Source: an uncultured Thermogutta sp. (GTDB lineage: Bacteria > Planctomycetota > Planctomycetia > Pirellulales > Thermoguttaceae). From it: a stretch of 59,627 nucleotides of DNA. Where the stretch lies: the NCBI GenBank assembly GCA_937128505.1, contig CAKZMM010000008.1:1-59627 (forward strand), given 5' to 3'. The notes under the pieces are model-generated. The model saw only the letters and a program-made list of their open reading frames with translations, made no database searches and was not told where the DNA came from. Made by a program: the position numbers and the translations under genes. This document shows, in pieces, positions 35,201 through 39,880 of the stretch (its first letter is position 1; each line of letters opens with the position of its first letter).

Positions 35201-35729
35201 ACTGAATGCGGTCGTCGGCCCGGGCCTCCCGGATTTTGTGTTTGAACCCTTCTAACCAACCAATCTGGGTGTTTTCTGGGTGGTCGAACTGGGGCACGTA
35301 CGGCTTGATATCCAGCAGGGGTGTCCCGTCTAGGATATCCAAATTCGCAAGAAACAGACGGGGCCCTTCAATACGCACCAACCGTACAACGGAAAGGCCG
35401 ATCGGATTCGGCCGGGTTGGAGCACGGGTGGCGAAAAGGCCACGAAGCCCAAAATCCAAGTACGGTCGGACGAGCAACTCCACCCGATTTACACGATGGA
35501 AGTGGTAAAGCAGAATGACGTGCGAGAATTCATCCAGATCCTTGAGCGCCGGGATGAACTGCGGAAAAACCTCGGCAAAGCCCTCCGCCGCCGCCTCGCT
35601 CGTGGGCTGAATCGGCATATCCCGGGGATCACGAAATGGGCTATGGATGATGCCGATCGCGCGATAAACGAATTGAAGGCCGGAGTCCTTCACATTCGCA
35701 TCTCGTATTGAAACCAACCCATAATGCAC
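35199..35729 (-). CDS. trmO: tRNA t6A37 methyltransferase TrmO (TsaA/YaeB family)
   Basis: A SAM-dependent N6-methyltransferase of the t6A base at position 37 in tRNA-Thr. The compact beta-barrel family is recognised by YRAIGIIHSPF at the start, LDEFSHVILLYHFHR in the middle, and the signature TRAPTRPNPIGLSVVRL followed by LDILDGTPLLDIKPYVPQFD. The 176-residue form lacks the C-terminal domain of E. coli TrmO, which is common outside proteobacteria. The start is GTG 35729, but GTG 35693 (read MKDSGLQFVYRAIG) fits the family N-terminus better. Neither has a strong Shine-Dalgarno sequence. Downstream lies the degenerate repeat cluster. Confidence 0.88.
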   Translation of the reverse strand: MHYGLVSIRDANVKDSGLQFVYRAIGIIHSPFRDPRDMPIQPTSEAAAEGFAEVFPQFIPALKDLDEFSHVILLYHFHRVNRVELLVRPYLDFGLRGLFATRAPTRPNPIGLSVVRLVRIEGPRLFLANLDILDGTPLLDIKPYVPQFDHPENTQIGWLEGFKHKIREARADDRIQ

Positions 35730-36110
35730 CGCGGATATCGCTCGCCCCTAAGGTGTTTCGCGGAGCATCTATTCGTTGCAACGTATTACCAGGTATTACC
35801 AGCGACTGACCGTTTCCGGTGACTTTTCGGGACAATCCAGCGAGGAATAGGGCACGATACATGCCTGACAACGAAGCTTCATCTCACGTCGCACAAGATT
35901 GAAGCAACGCCAACTACATCTTGCCAAAGGCTTGTACCCTTAAAAGCAGTATTCCGCAAAATTTTGACGGGCTTCAGCCTTTGAGGCGGCGCGGCAATTC
36001 TCTCTTGTCGCTAAGGGGCTCACCAGCCGGGATTGGAAAACTTCAATGCTCGTGACGCGCAACACTCAAACGATGCTTTCCCACTCGTAACTGTCTCCGA
36101 CGAAGAAGAC
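35730..36110. other. Intergenic stretch
   Basis: No gene is seen. It includes an exact 10-bp tandem duplication at 35783-35802 and probably the promoter of trmO. Confidence 0.4.
35783..35802. repeat. Exact tandem duplication, 10 bp x 2
   Basis: GTATTACCAG is repeated head to tail. Confidence 0.85.
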
Positions 36111-36512
36111 TTACCAGTCTTCGTCCTCATCTTCGTCCTCGTCCCAATCGTCTTCTTCGTCTTCATCCCAATCCTCATCTTCCTCCCAATCTTCGTCTTC
36201 CTCTACATCATCCCAATCGTCTTCCTCTTCATCCAAGTCTTCATCTTCGTCCCAATCTTCGTCCTCCTCGAAGTCCTCATCTTCTTCGTCGAGGTCTTCA
36301 TCCTCATCTTCAAAGTCTTCGTCTTCCTCTTCGTAATCCTCGTCGAATTCTTCTTCCTCCTCTTCCTCCTCTTCTTTCCTTTTGCAGCGGGCCGGACCCA
36401 CTCTGCAGCTACCCCTTACAGCACCCAAAGCCACACCGCTCCCGTCCTGGCCTCCGAAAACGCCTGACTGCCAACTCCACTGAGCAAGCCATGTGTAAAT
36501 CGAGGTTCGCAC
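36111..36512 (-). CDS. Extremely acidic protein with regularly spaced aromatic residues
   Basis: A 133-residue protein. Residues 1-46 are a Trp- and Gly-rich head ending in the basic cluster CKRK. Residues 47-133 are 74 Asp/Glu plus only 13 others, all hydrophobic: F, Y, F, L, F, W, L, W, V, W, W, W, W. These recur mostly every 6-7 residues in units such as EDEDEDL, DEEDEDF and EEDEDW, and the chain ends in DEDW. No Lys or Arg occurs after residue 46. The GTG start has GGAGGGG 8 bases upstream, strong support for translation. It lies 67 bp after scpB on the same strand, so it is probably in its operon. The opposite strand is also open but would encode a Phe/Val/Leu/Ile string, the expected mirror of this repeat. 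Acidic tails of this kind occur in histone chaperones and DNA mimics. The function here is unknown. Confidence 0.75.
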   Translation of the reverse strand: MRTSIYTWLAQWSWQSGVFGGQDGSGVALGAVRGSCRVGPARCKRKEEEEEEEEEFDEDYEEEDEDFEDEDEDLDEEDEDFEEDEDWDEDEDLDEEEDDWDDVEEDEDWEEDEDWDEDEEDDWDEDEDEDEDW

Positions 36513-36579
36513 GATTTTTACCCCTCCGGATCTGACAGTGATTACTCCAAACAGTTAGTCCCCTTTTGGGAACACTCCT

Positions 36580-37209
36580 TCAACCCTGATCTTTACAGAC
36601 TTGCTGGATCGACTCCTCGGTAGTTTTTTCCCGACGATAGGCCGAAATCTTAGCTACGGTCGACAAATCCTCCAAGTGCCGAAGTCCAAATACCTGAAGA
36701 AACCGCCGAGTGGTGCCGTAAAGCAGGGGTCGCCCCAATTCATTGGACCGGCCCGTAATTCGCACCAAATCCATCTCCATAAGTTGCCGTAAAACTTCCC
36801 CGCAACGTACTCCGCGGATTGCTTCAATTTCCGCTCGCAGCACGGGCTGTTGAAAAGCGACAATACAAAGTGTCTCCAAAACAGCCAGCGACAATGCGGT
36901 TCGCCACGGTCCCGGGTCCCCCCACAAACTTTCGATCCAGGCCGAAAATTGCGGTCGGCTCAGAAACTGAAAACCTCCCGCCACCGGATAGACCCGGAAA
37001 GCCATCCCCAGGGCATCATAGGTTGAATTGAGTTGAGCTACAAGTGTACGGGCCTCCGTGGCATCGGCTAAGCGCGCCCATTGAGCGAGCTTTCTTGCCG
37101 ACAAGGGTTCCCGAGCCAAAAAGAGGACGGCCTCCAACCGTTGCAAGGCCGAGGGCTCTAGTCCTGCTTTCCGGCCTTCCTCAATACTTTCGGCCCGAAG
37201 GGGCCCCAC
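36580..37209 (-). CDS. scpB: Segregation and condensation protein B
   Basis: ScpB binds the kleisin ScpA and with SMC forms the bacterial condensin-like complex that compacts and segregates chromosomes. The 209-residue protein shows the two winged-helix domains: LQRLEAVLFLAREPLSARKLAQW and VYPVAGGFQFLSRPQFSAWIE in the first, then LSLAVLETLCIVAFQQPVLRAEIEAIRGV and GRSNELGRPLLYGTTRRFLQVFGL in the second. The GTG start at 37209 is supported by AAAGGAG 9 bases upstream. scpA is not adjacent. The next gene on the strand is the acidic protein, an unusual partner. Confidence 0.92.
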   Translation of the reverse strand: MGPLRAESIEEGRKAGLEPSALQRLEAVLFLAREPLSARKLAQWARLADATEARTLVAQLNSTYDALGMAFRVYPVAGGFQFLSRPQFSAWIESLWGDPGPWRTALSLAVLETLCIVAFQQPVLRAEIEAIRGVRCGEVLRQLMEMDLVRITGRSNELGRPLLYGTTRRFLQVFGLRHLEDLSTVAKISAYRREKTTEESIQQVCKDQG

Positions 37210-38067
37210 GCACTAAACTCCTTTCCTCAAAACCATGCAGTCCCCAAAGATTACCTTTTTTCGGTCTGAAACTGGTTATGCCTCTTCATAATTTCCTCGA
37301 GAGTCCGTGGCTAACTCGGAGCAACCGCCCCGTCGAAAAGGCGAGATAGTCTATAAAGCCCTCAAACGCAAGGCAAGCCTCCTGCCCCTGAGTTAGATGA
37401 GCCCACAACCTCGATATTTCGGCAAAAATCCCAAAGCCCCTAAAAGTAAACTCCCGCCCCTTAAGCCTGAAGCAATTTTCCGTTCCTCGCGAGCGGGAAC
37501 TTGGGTTTCCTACCTACTTGTGATTAGCAGAAAAGCCCGCGGCTGCGTCAAGGGGTGTCCGCGGGGGAAATTTTCATTAACACCAGAGCGCGAGAAATCG
37601 TTTTTAACCGCAGCACCTCCGCAAGGCGCAGCAAAACCGAGAAGCAGCGAGTCGTTTTCGGCAAAAAAGTCGAGAAAATTCCTATGACTTGTAAACGAAA
37701 ATAAAGCAAGCTGCTGGCTATTACTCTTTAGACTTTTCCTTTCACCAAATCTTTCGCAGAACCGAATTATCAGGAGGTATGTACTATCCCTTGTTAGCGC
37801 ATTTTCCAACTTAGCGAATCGAAAAATTCGGCTCAAGACGCGCTATCACAGACTTTCAGAATGTAATTCGGAGCCCACTCTTGAGCCCTGCACATCGACT
37901 CCTAAGTCTCAAACCCGCCGGCTCTATTTTTTGGCGGTTCGGCATCTATTTTGCGAGCCTCGCAGGTGGGCCATTCACTGGGCCCGTTATTAACGAAAAC
38001 TTTGAGGACGGGGACACGGCCAGGAATCAGCCAAAAGCAAATTTCTTGCCAATCATTTGTCTAAGTA

Positions 38068-38325: not shown

Positions 38326-39447
38326 TTACGGACGGTCCTTACCTAACGTATCTCGAGTCGATGCTTCTACATCGCGCAAAACGGTAAGCATGGCGGCCAA
38401 CGGATCCGCGTCAATGGCCTCGAAATGCCGCGGAATTTGAGCACCGCTACCTTGGGCAATTTCCGCCGAGAATCGATAGACACGTTTATCGTCGGCTCTG
38501 AACGCCTCCAATATGTAGTAGACAGCCCCCAGTTCTCGGAGCCGGGCTTCGATCCTTTGAATCTCCGGATGGTGGGCCGTAAAGCTGCCCGAGCGCTCTC
38601 CCCGTTGTAATTCGGGGAGGTCTCCAAGCGCCGCTTCGGGGGAAAAGGCCGAGGTAGTTTTCTCTTTGTTAATCCCCGTGGTGATAGGGTGGAGTGCAGG
38701 GGCTGAGGTGAAGGGAAGTAGGCCCGGTTCCACGTTGGAGCCCGATGCCAAAGGCCCTGCGCGAACCTCTGGGGGAATATTTGCGGGGCCGAAACCATCC
38801 GCTTTATTCACAGAAGCGCCTGCCGCCATTTGCGGCTCTCCAGACGCGGTGCCAAAGGTGCCGGAGTTGAAAACAAGTGCAGTATCCGTCGAAACTTCCC
38901 CATGAAACGCGGTGGAGGTAGTGCCCGAGGGATCTGTCGACTCCCGGCTGGCCAATACCACTTTTTCTGAATCGTGGGCTTGCGCAGGAGATCCCGGCAG
39001 CGCACGTTGGAAAGCATCTCCCCATCCTGTGGCCCACCAAAATGGGGGTTCGTGGCGGTTAGCCCCTCCGTCTTTGGGCTTTTGATCATCGAGAGGCACG
39101 CTCAGCTCGCCCTCCGCTGCCAAAAGACTAAGTTGGCTTGAATTCCCGCCTGAAGCCTCTCCGGAGGGCGCTTGCACTAACGGCTGAGAAGGATCTCCAT
39201 GCCAAGCGGGGGGCTCGGCAAACCCGAGGGTACTTTTTCGGAGCTGCCCCTCCGGAGATCCTTGAAAGAGGACCGCCCCGTAATCGGCCCAAATGCTCTG
39301 AACCTTATGCGCAAGCTGTTTAGGTTCCAAGATCGGGCCGCCAAGCAAAGCCGGTAAAAACATCCCCATCCAGGTCGCGACCGGGACAACCACGATAAGT
39401 GCTATGAAGAAACCAACTCCTCGGCCGGCCGATTGCGTGGCTGCCAT
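38326..39447 (-). CDS. Membrane-anchored protein of unknown function
   Basis: A 373-residue protein. One N-terminal transmembrane helix (about 10-35, VGFFIALIVVVPVATWMGMFLPALL) precedes a long, poorly ordered Ser/Ala/Gly/Pro-rich middle (about 80-290). A compact conserved-looking C-terminal part follows from about 295 (HPEIQRIEARLRELGAVYY, DDKRVYRFSAEIA, PRHFEAIDADPLAAMLTVL). The protein is presumably anchored in the inner membrane with the C-terminal domain outside the cytoplasm. ATG 39447 has GGAGG 9 bases upstream, so the frame extending to 39657 is rejected. I do not recognise the domain by name. Confidence 0.68.
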   Translation of the reverse strand: MAATQSAGRGVGFFIALIVVVPVATWMGMFLPALLGGPILEPKQLAHKVQSIWADYGAVLFQGSPEGQLRKSTLGFAEPPAWHGDPSQPLVQAPSGEASGGNSSQLSLLAAEGELSVPLDDQKPKDGGANRHEPPFWWATGWGDAFQRALPGSPAQAHDSEKVVLASRESTDPSGTTSTAFHGEVSTDTALVFNSGTFGTASGEPQMAAGASVNKADGFGPANIPPEVRAGPLASGSNVEPGLLPFTSAPALHPITTGINKEKTTSAFSPEAALGDLPELQRGERSGSFTAHHPEIQRIEARLRELGAVYYILEAFRADDKRVYRFSAEIAQGSGAQIPRHFEAIDADPLAAMLTVLRDVEASTRDTLGKDRP

Positions 39448-39880
39448 CGGGTCTAACCTCCGTGCGTGCTGTGTAAAGCTTTCGAATCTACGAAAGACCC
39501 GCGCAAAATCGGGGGAGCACACGGCCCCTGAGTCGCTGTGATTCGCGACTGACCGGCGGATTTCACCGGTCGGAACAATGTCCTGAACTTTTACAGTTTT
39601 GAGATCTCTTGGTGACGTGAGTCCCGCTCTTGGGCGGCAGAAGAAGGGTACTCCCAAACCGGCCGGTTTTGCGCGGCAAGCCGGGCAGTCTCATTGGTCA
39701 AAAGCAGATCATATCGGGCCTCGAAGAAATCTCACAACGTCAAAACTGTGGTGGCGTGGTGGCATGGTGGCACCCAGAGGTTTGAGGGGAGAATTCCCTT
39801 CTATCAACCCGAGGAAATCGGTGACTGAGTTAAGGCGGTAAACGGGCGGGGAGAATTTCCGCACACTTGCAACCTTCCGC

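Follow-up and report, generated by a model that had tools for sequence, protein, structure and literature searches.

Across the planctomycete order Pirellulales, a small, extremely acidic and probably disordered protein with evenly spaced aromatic residues is encoded directly behind, and often inside the same reading frame as, one of two paralogs of the condensin subunit gene scpB, which suggests an unrecognised regulator of how these bacteria pack their DNA. An acidic frame follows this paralog in 50 of 55 genomes examined and the other paralog in 0 of 20, and in 22 of the 25 genomes in which the acidic frame is continuous with scpB an internal ribosome site is nevertheless kept. A free acidic protein is therefore probably general, and an ScpB-tailed form is probably made in about half of the species. 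We infer, with a probability of roughly 0.4, that the acidic block is a disordered polyanion with aromatic anchors that competes with DNA for basic surfaces of SMC-ScpAB.

The acidic-aromatic gene and its surroundings

The window is the whole stretch of DNA analysed, 59,627 nucleotides of contig CAKZMM010000008.1 (contig 8 of a 5.58-Mb genome, GCA_937128505.1) from an uncultured Thermogutta sp. A sequence-only reading had drawn attention to positions 36111-37209, which cover both scpB and the acidic gene, and had described a GTG-initiated gene with a strong ribosome site 67 bp after scpB, with 74 Asp/Glu among its last 87 residues, hydrophobic residues spaced 6-7 apart, a preceding CKRK cluster and a terminal Trp. 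Our analysis confirmed this observation, and indeed found it to be understated. The features are collected below.

Features of the acidic-aromatic locus and neighbouring frames in the window
Feature	Coordinates	Strand	Remarks
Acidic-aromatic protein gene	36111-36512	-	133 aa plus stop (coding 36114-36512); no Pfam or NCBIfam family at E 0.001, no PHROGs family at E 1
Start codon GTG	36510-36512	-	
Shine-Dalgarno (SD) GGAGGGG	36521-36527	-	8 nt before the GTG
Leader	36375-36512	-	46 residues ending in CKRK, not acidic; about ribosome-tunnel length or a little more
Polyacidic block	36114-36374	-	87 residues, 74 Asp/Glu, 13 spaced hydrophobics (mostly F/Y/L first, W later); chain ends on Trp
W-D-D-V	36204-36215	-	the family's W[DE][DE]V core motif
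Gap between scpB and acidic gene	36513-36579	-	67 bp
scpB paralog 1 (condensin kite subunit)	36580-37209	-	PF04079 E 8e-46; TIGR00281 96.2 bits, cut-off 89.2
Antisense hydrophobic ORF	36033-36467	+	mirror by-product of the acidic codons
ORF upstream of scpB	38326-39657	-	443 aa, no Pfam match

The 13 residues of the block that are not Asp/Glu are W6 F3 L2 Y1 V1, counted by eye. The gaps between these hydrophobics are 4, 7, 7, 7, 6, 6, 7, 3, 6, 6, 8 and 10, and their coefficient of variation (CV) is 0.266 against a shuffle mean of 0.824, with 0 of 5000 shuffles as low. The Asp/Glu codons use all four third bases (GAA 25, GAC 17, GAG 16, GAT 16), which points to protein-level selection and not to copying of one DNA unit, although TRF does detect imperfect repeats in this region. 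All four GAN codons are likewise used across the family, and as TGG requires two base changes from GAG, the Trp pattern is hard to explain by slippage. Expansion of a DNA repeat alone is rejected by these mixed third bases together with the conserved aromatic order described below. The antisense hydrophobic ORF is explained by the genetic code, since GAN codons read backwards as NTC and are never stops. The acidic protein contains no ScpB winged-helix domain by Pfam or NCBIfam profile search, and a sequence search of the PDB gave as best matches an origin recognition complex subunit 1 (E 0.49) and calreticulin (E 0.77), and no histone chaperone. AlphaFold2, run on the window protein with five relatives, gave no confident fold (mean pLDDT 53.7, pTM 0.17, with only residues 4-15 helical), which is consistent with disorder, although six rows are few and the protein could fold on binding. 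The computed pI is 4.05, the lower limit of the program.

Within 35600-37600 no promoter-like site was found, and none of the seven terminator-like sites (2.5 expected) lies in the 67-bp gap, which fits co-transcription with scpB but does not show it. Rfam models gave nothing in the window at gathering cut-offs. The gene hemA, and upstream of it a cytochrome-c-assembly-like gene (PF01578 below its cut-off), face the scpB unit convergently. Within the short flanks examined, hemA on the opposite strand is found in 13 of 55 loci, the window included, while trmO is present only in the window (1 of 55) and so is not a conserved downstream neighbour. A stretch of 63-104 residues of the 443-aa ORF recurs upstream of scpB in 17 of 55 loci.

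Conservation behind one of two scpB paralogs

A protein-level homology search with the acidic protein found only itself in 60 genomes, probably because of composition correction, and we therefore located scpB by PF04079 and scanned the downstream frames directly for at least 55% Asp/Glu over 40 residues. We refer to the genomes of the same order as Pirellulales, an equation inferred from the NCBI placement of the single name Thermoguttaceae in the order Pirellulales, class Planctomycetia. PF04079 matched in 58 of 60 relatives, with two copies in 52. Of the 55 genomes assessed, with one paralog-1 copy examined in each (58 loci were scanned, three being repeat copies of the same genomes), 54 are among these 60 relatives, of which 2 had no ScpB match and 4 only a weaker, paralog-2-like one; the 55th comes from the search that gave the 13 sister-group genomes. 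Of the five genomes without an acidic frame after scpB-1, G057 and G023 end at a contig edge. The other three, G010, G022 and G027, lack it within 17-19 kb around scpB but carry a matching frame elsewhere: at two of these loci, L247 and L248, it has a strong SD and GTG, and at the third, L250, it is cut by a contig edge; L247 lacks W[DE][DE]V. In contrast, none of 20 scpB-2 loci had the frame (one of these, L102, had only 377 nt downstream). In the sister group of the class 3 of 13 passed, all in-frame tails without Trp in the stretch shown, and of 50 loci from the rest of the phylum, a few of which had under 500 nt downstream, 2 passed, both of another kind: one a moderately acidic stretch in a long frame 878 nt away and one a milder in-frame tail. 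Named contigs, partly from the same genomes, agree; for example, a Mariniblastus frame (L152) has YEEV and no Trp in the stretch shown, and a Rhodopirellula (L159) has an in-frame block cut by the contig end.

The block has median length 92 (58-138) and median net charge -72, and in every one of the 50 genomes it has at least one Trp. W[DE][DE]V occurs in 45 of 50, Phe/Tyr/Leu are more frequent in the first half in 46 of 50, and Trp in the second half in 45 of 50. Hydrophobic gaps have a CV of 0.62 against 0.90 in shuffles (minimum 0.80 in 300), and the median gap of W/F/Y/L/I is 7. Genome-wide, the pattern [DE]W[DE][DE]V[DE]3 hit 34 times in 33 of 60 genomes, with 32 hits at the scpB-1 locus and none from the reversed control. 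The two remaining hits are G027 contig 50, the copy away from scpB, and G057 contig 2, the tail of an ATPase with PF13514 and PF13476. At locus L234 (3879-8000, minus strand) an ATPase with PF13514 and PF13476 (SMC_N below its cut-off) has an acidic C-terminal tail containing WEEVDDD, away from scpB. The looser pattern [DE]3W[DE]3 also hits other proteins (36 of 40 genomes; its reversed control hit once).

It is possible, though unlikely, that the block is a generic ScpB C-terminal tail that drifted into a long low-complexity acidic stretch, useful at most for solubility or spacing and without a specific partner. Milder acidic ScpB tails do occur in the sister group (a 30-aa window at or above 50% D/E in 4 of 13) and rarely elsewhere (4 of 80 named loci, one of them a Rhodopirellula; 1 of 50 other phylum loci), and a Sumerlaeia ScpB (L200) has a strongly acidic tail without aromatics, so plain acidic ScpB tails exist outside planctomycetes. 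FtsK of Pirellulales also has an acidic tail beyond the gamma domain in 19 of 27 loci (L261-L287; see also L252 and L260), Tyr/Trp-bearing in several but with W[DE][DE][VI] in none, and lacking in the three genomes of the window's genus. Part of the acidity may therefore be a lineage habit on chromosome machines. However, a generic tail is at odds with the conserved ribosome site, the even spacing and F/Y/L-then-W order of the aromatics, the presence of W[DE][DE]V in 45 of 50, and the survival of the gene apart from scpB. A divalent-metal or polycation buffer, or a condensate-forming factor (the sequence-only reading had raised a divalent-metal buffer or a phase-separating factor), rests on composition alone, explains neither the scpB linkage, the fusions nor W[DE][DE]V, and is very unlikely.

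Two copies of scpB are present in 52 of 60 relatives and 13 of 13 sister-group genomes, while other genomes of the phylum sample mostly have one. In contrast, scpA is single (38 of 40 with a match; one genome has it in two pieces) and SMC passes its cut-off in 22 of 25, once each among the strong matches listed. The two ScpB could, by inference, form a heterodimer. On an ScpB tree of 101 rows the 55 Pirellulales paralog-1 rows are one side of a branch (SH-aLRT 89), and paralog 2 forms its own clade.

Fusion with scpB and an internal ribosome site

In 25 of 50 genomes scpB runs into the acidic block without a stop, and in 22 of these 25 a strong SD, correctly spaced before a start codon, lies in the linker in the acidic frame. 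Random synonymous recoding of the same protein gives 7.88 such loci, or 5.84 (maximum 14 of 25 in 500 sets) when the start must lie 20-45 aa before the block, against 22 observed in each case; 3 of 25 fused loci lack a strong SD, and the SD position within the linker is not more clustered than in recoded controls (KS p 0.67). Of 48 loci with an assigned start (L002 and L082 had none and were left out), 25 are in phase, 23 do not overlap, with gaps of 3 to 1121 bp, and none overlaps out of phase; these starts were chosen with a weighting towards 31 aa before the block. Fused and separate states require 10 changes on the ScpB tree, in which 47 of 97 inner branches are weak. The free protein thus looks like the constant product, and fusion like an option that is taken and lost repeatedly. 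A literature search for internal initiation returned nothing.

Leader lengths were taken from the 40 of 50 loci with a strong SD, the other 10 being left out. In these the stretch between start and block is 27-51 residues (median 37.5; where several candidates existed the first ATG/GTG was taken, which favours longer leaders), with a median D/E fraction of 0.17. The start is GTG and not ATG in 33 of 40, even in separate genes, which may keep expression low or coupled. The leader keeps a length but hardly a sequence beyond its first residues (V/M, then mostly K/T/S/R, then mostly T/I/V). The CKRK cluster has counterparts in the two same-genus genomes (ARRRK) and in one other (AAKKKV), while 26 of 48 have at least one Lys/Arg in the last six leader residues. 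In yeast, acidic runs in the first 30-40 residues abort translation and proteins avoid them there, a trend also reported for other organisms (PMC9718836). We infer that the leader probably fills the ribosome exit tunnel before the acidic run arrives, although in E. coli internal runs can abort translation as well, depending on context (PMC9718836), and so a leader may not fully protect. This regularity bears on how cells make proteins with blocks that are about 80% Asp/Glu. As D/E runs abort translation in bacteria (PMC9718836; the EttA paper PMC11282234), the run might instead act as a translation sensor that destabilises ribosomes and tunes the output of the locus with Mg2+ or ribosome state, the peptide itself mattering little. 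We consider this very unlikely, as the block lies at the 3' end, after scpB, where little is left to regulate, the leader would lessen abortion near the start, and aromatic positions are ordered at the protein level.

Inferred mechanism and comparison with known systems

The comparative data establish the order-wide linkage to scpB-1, the gene's own translation signal, the fusions and the protein-level constraint on the aromatics, whereas disorder, expression as two products, binding to and function with SMC-ScpAB, and DNA-like competition are inferences from sequence. In our tentative main reading, the block is a DNA-like polyanion whose aromatic anchors pin it to basic surfaces and which, delivered with the kite subunit ScpB, would compete with DNA for the basic DNA-capture surfaces of SMC-ScpAB as a built-in brake or clearing device for DNA loading. 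The ScpB-1 domain of Pirellulales is more basic than other ScpB groups (median net charge +6, n 55, against +2, n 13; +3, n 20; +3, n 49; Mann-Whitney p 8e-6 or less, relatedness not corrected for). However, ScpB-1 of the window's own genus is not basic (+3, -5, -4), and ScpB charge does not track block charge within the order (Spearman 0.11, p 0.46), so that electrostatic pairing in cis holds at group level only. In 3 genomes the gene is away from scpB, and a physical link is not obligatory there.

The interpretation offered by the sequence-only reading, a DNA mimic or nucleoid-protein chaperone acting with SMC-ScpAB, is only partly supported. The genomic predictions that it had set as tests hold, in that homologues stand beside scpB in relatives and aromatic spacing stays more even than chance, and the idea of a protein working with the complex is strengthened by the 25 in-frame fusions; but the N-terminal leader is hardly conserved in sequence, and the period of 6-7 is a family median of 7 with wide spread. 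Sequence does not decide between DNA mimic and chaperone. The chaperone alternative is a serious rival, if less likely than the main reading: the free protein would bind HU-like or other basic proteins through charge plus aromatic anchors, in the way the APLF acidic domain binds histones, and the scpB link would reflect shared chromosome housekeeping and not direct binding to SMC-ScpAB. The apparent constancy of the free form and its occurrence away from scpB in 3 genomes favour this view. Against it, no Hc1-type H1-like protein was found in 25 genomes, in a search that did not extend to HU, and it does not explain the 25 fusions.

A bolder possibility, doubtful on present evidence but not excluded, is that a bacterial condensin has its own built-in DNA mimic, one reading frame yielding both a kite subunit with a polyanionic, tryptophan-studded tail and, from an internal start, the tail alone as a diffusible molecule, the pair gating DNA capture by SMC-ScpAB as a bacterial counterpart of eukaryotic acidic-aromatic chromatin chaperone domains. 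SMC-ScpAB is described as a three-subunit complex with ScpB as its kite subunit (PMC7055376). Literature searches on planctomycete ScpB, nucleoid and condensin, ScpB paralogs, acidic or disordered C-termini and SMC-directed DNA mimics found no description of this family and no reported cellular polyanion that works with the complex, in so far as titles and abstract openings of largely open-access papers reveal. An order-wide partner with fused and free forms would give a natural handle on when bacterial condensin takes up DNA, and would be a bacterial case of the acidic-plus-aromatic logic of histone chaperones and activation domains. The protein would work like these polyanions, but is not shown to belong to any of their families.

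The best precedent for the mechanism is T7 gp5.9, an acidic DNA mimic that blocks the DNA-binding cleft of MukE and stops MukBEF loading (PMC7617805). MukE is a kite subunit and the counterpart of ScpB. In both cases a small, strongly negative protein would act on the ScpB-like subunit of a bacterial SMC complex in place of DNA, as shown for gp5.9 and inferred here. In contrast, gp5.9 is a structured phage protein used as a dimer and acts from outside, while the protein described here is host-encoded, without a confident predicted fold, Trp-rich and genetically tied to ScpB. For the aromatics, the precedent is the disordered acidic domain of the histone chaperone APLF, whose anchors Y462, F468, Y476 and W485, 6-9 residues apart, are needed for histone binding (PMC9328677). 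That domain is eukaryotic and binds histones, and no sequence relation was found, whereas our block is bacterial and about 80% D/E. Eukaryotic acidic transcription activation domains likewise combine required acidic residues with bulky hydrophobics in disordered chains that bind fuzzily, and such domains are also reported in the cohesin subunits Scc1, Scc3 and Smc3 (PMC8137143). In one model, acidity keeps the aromatics exposed. These domains contact Mediator, a eukaryotic complex. Finally, the family resembles ScpB C-terminal tails in the 25 of 50 genomes in which the block is in frame with ScpB, and milder acidic tails occur in the sister group, but in the window and 24 others it is a separate frame, and 22 of 25 fused copies keep a strong internal start.
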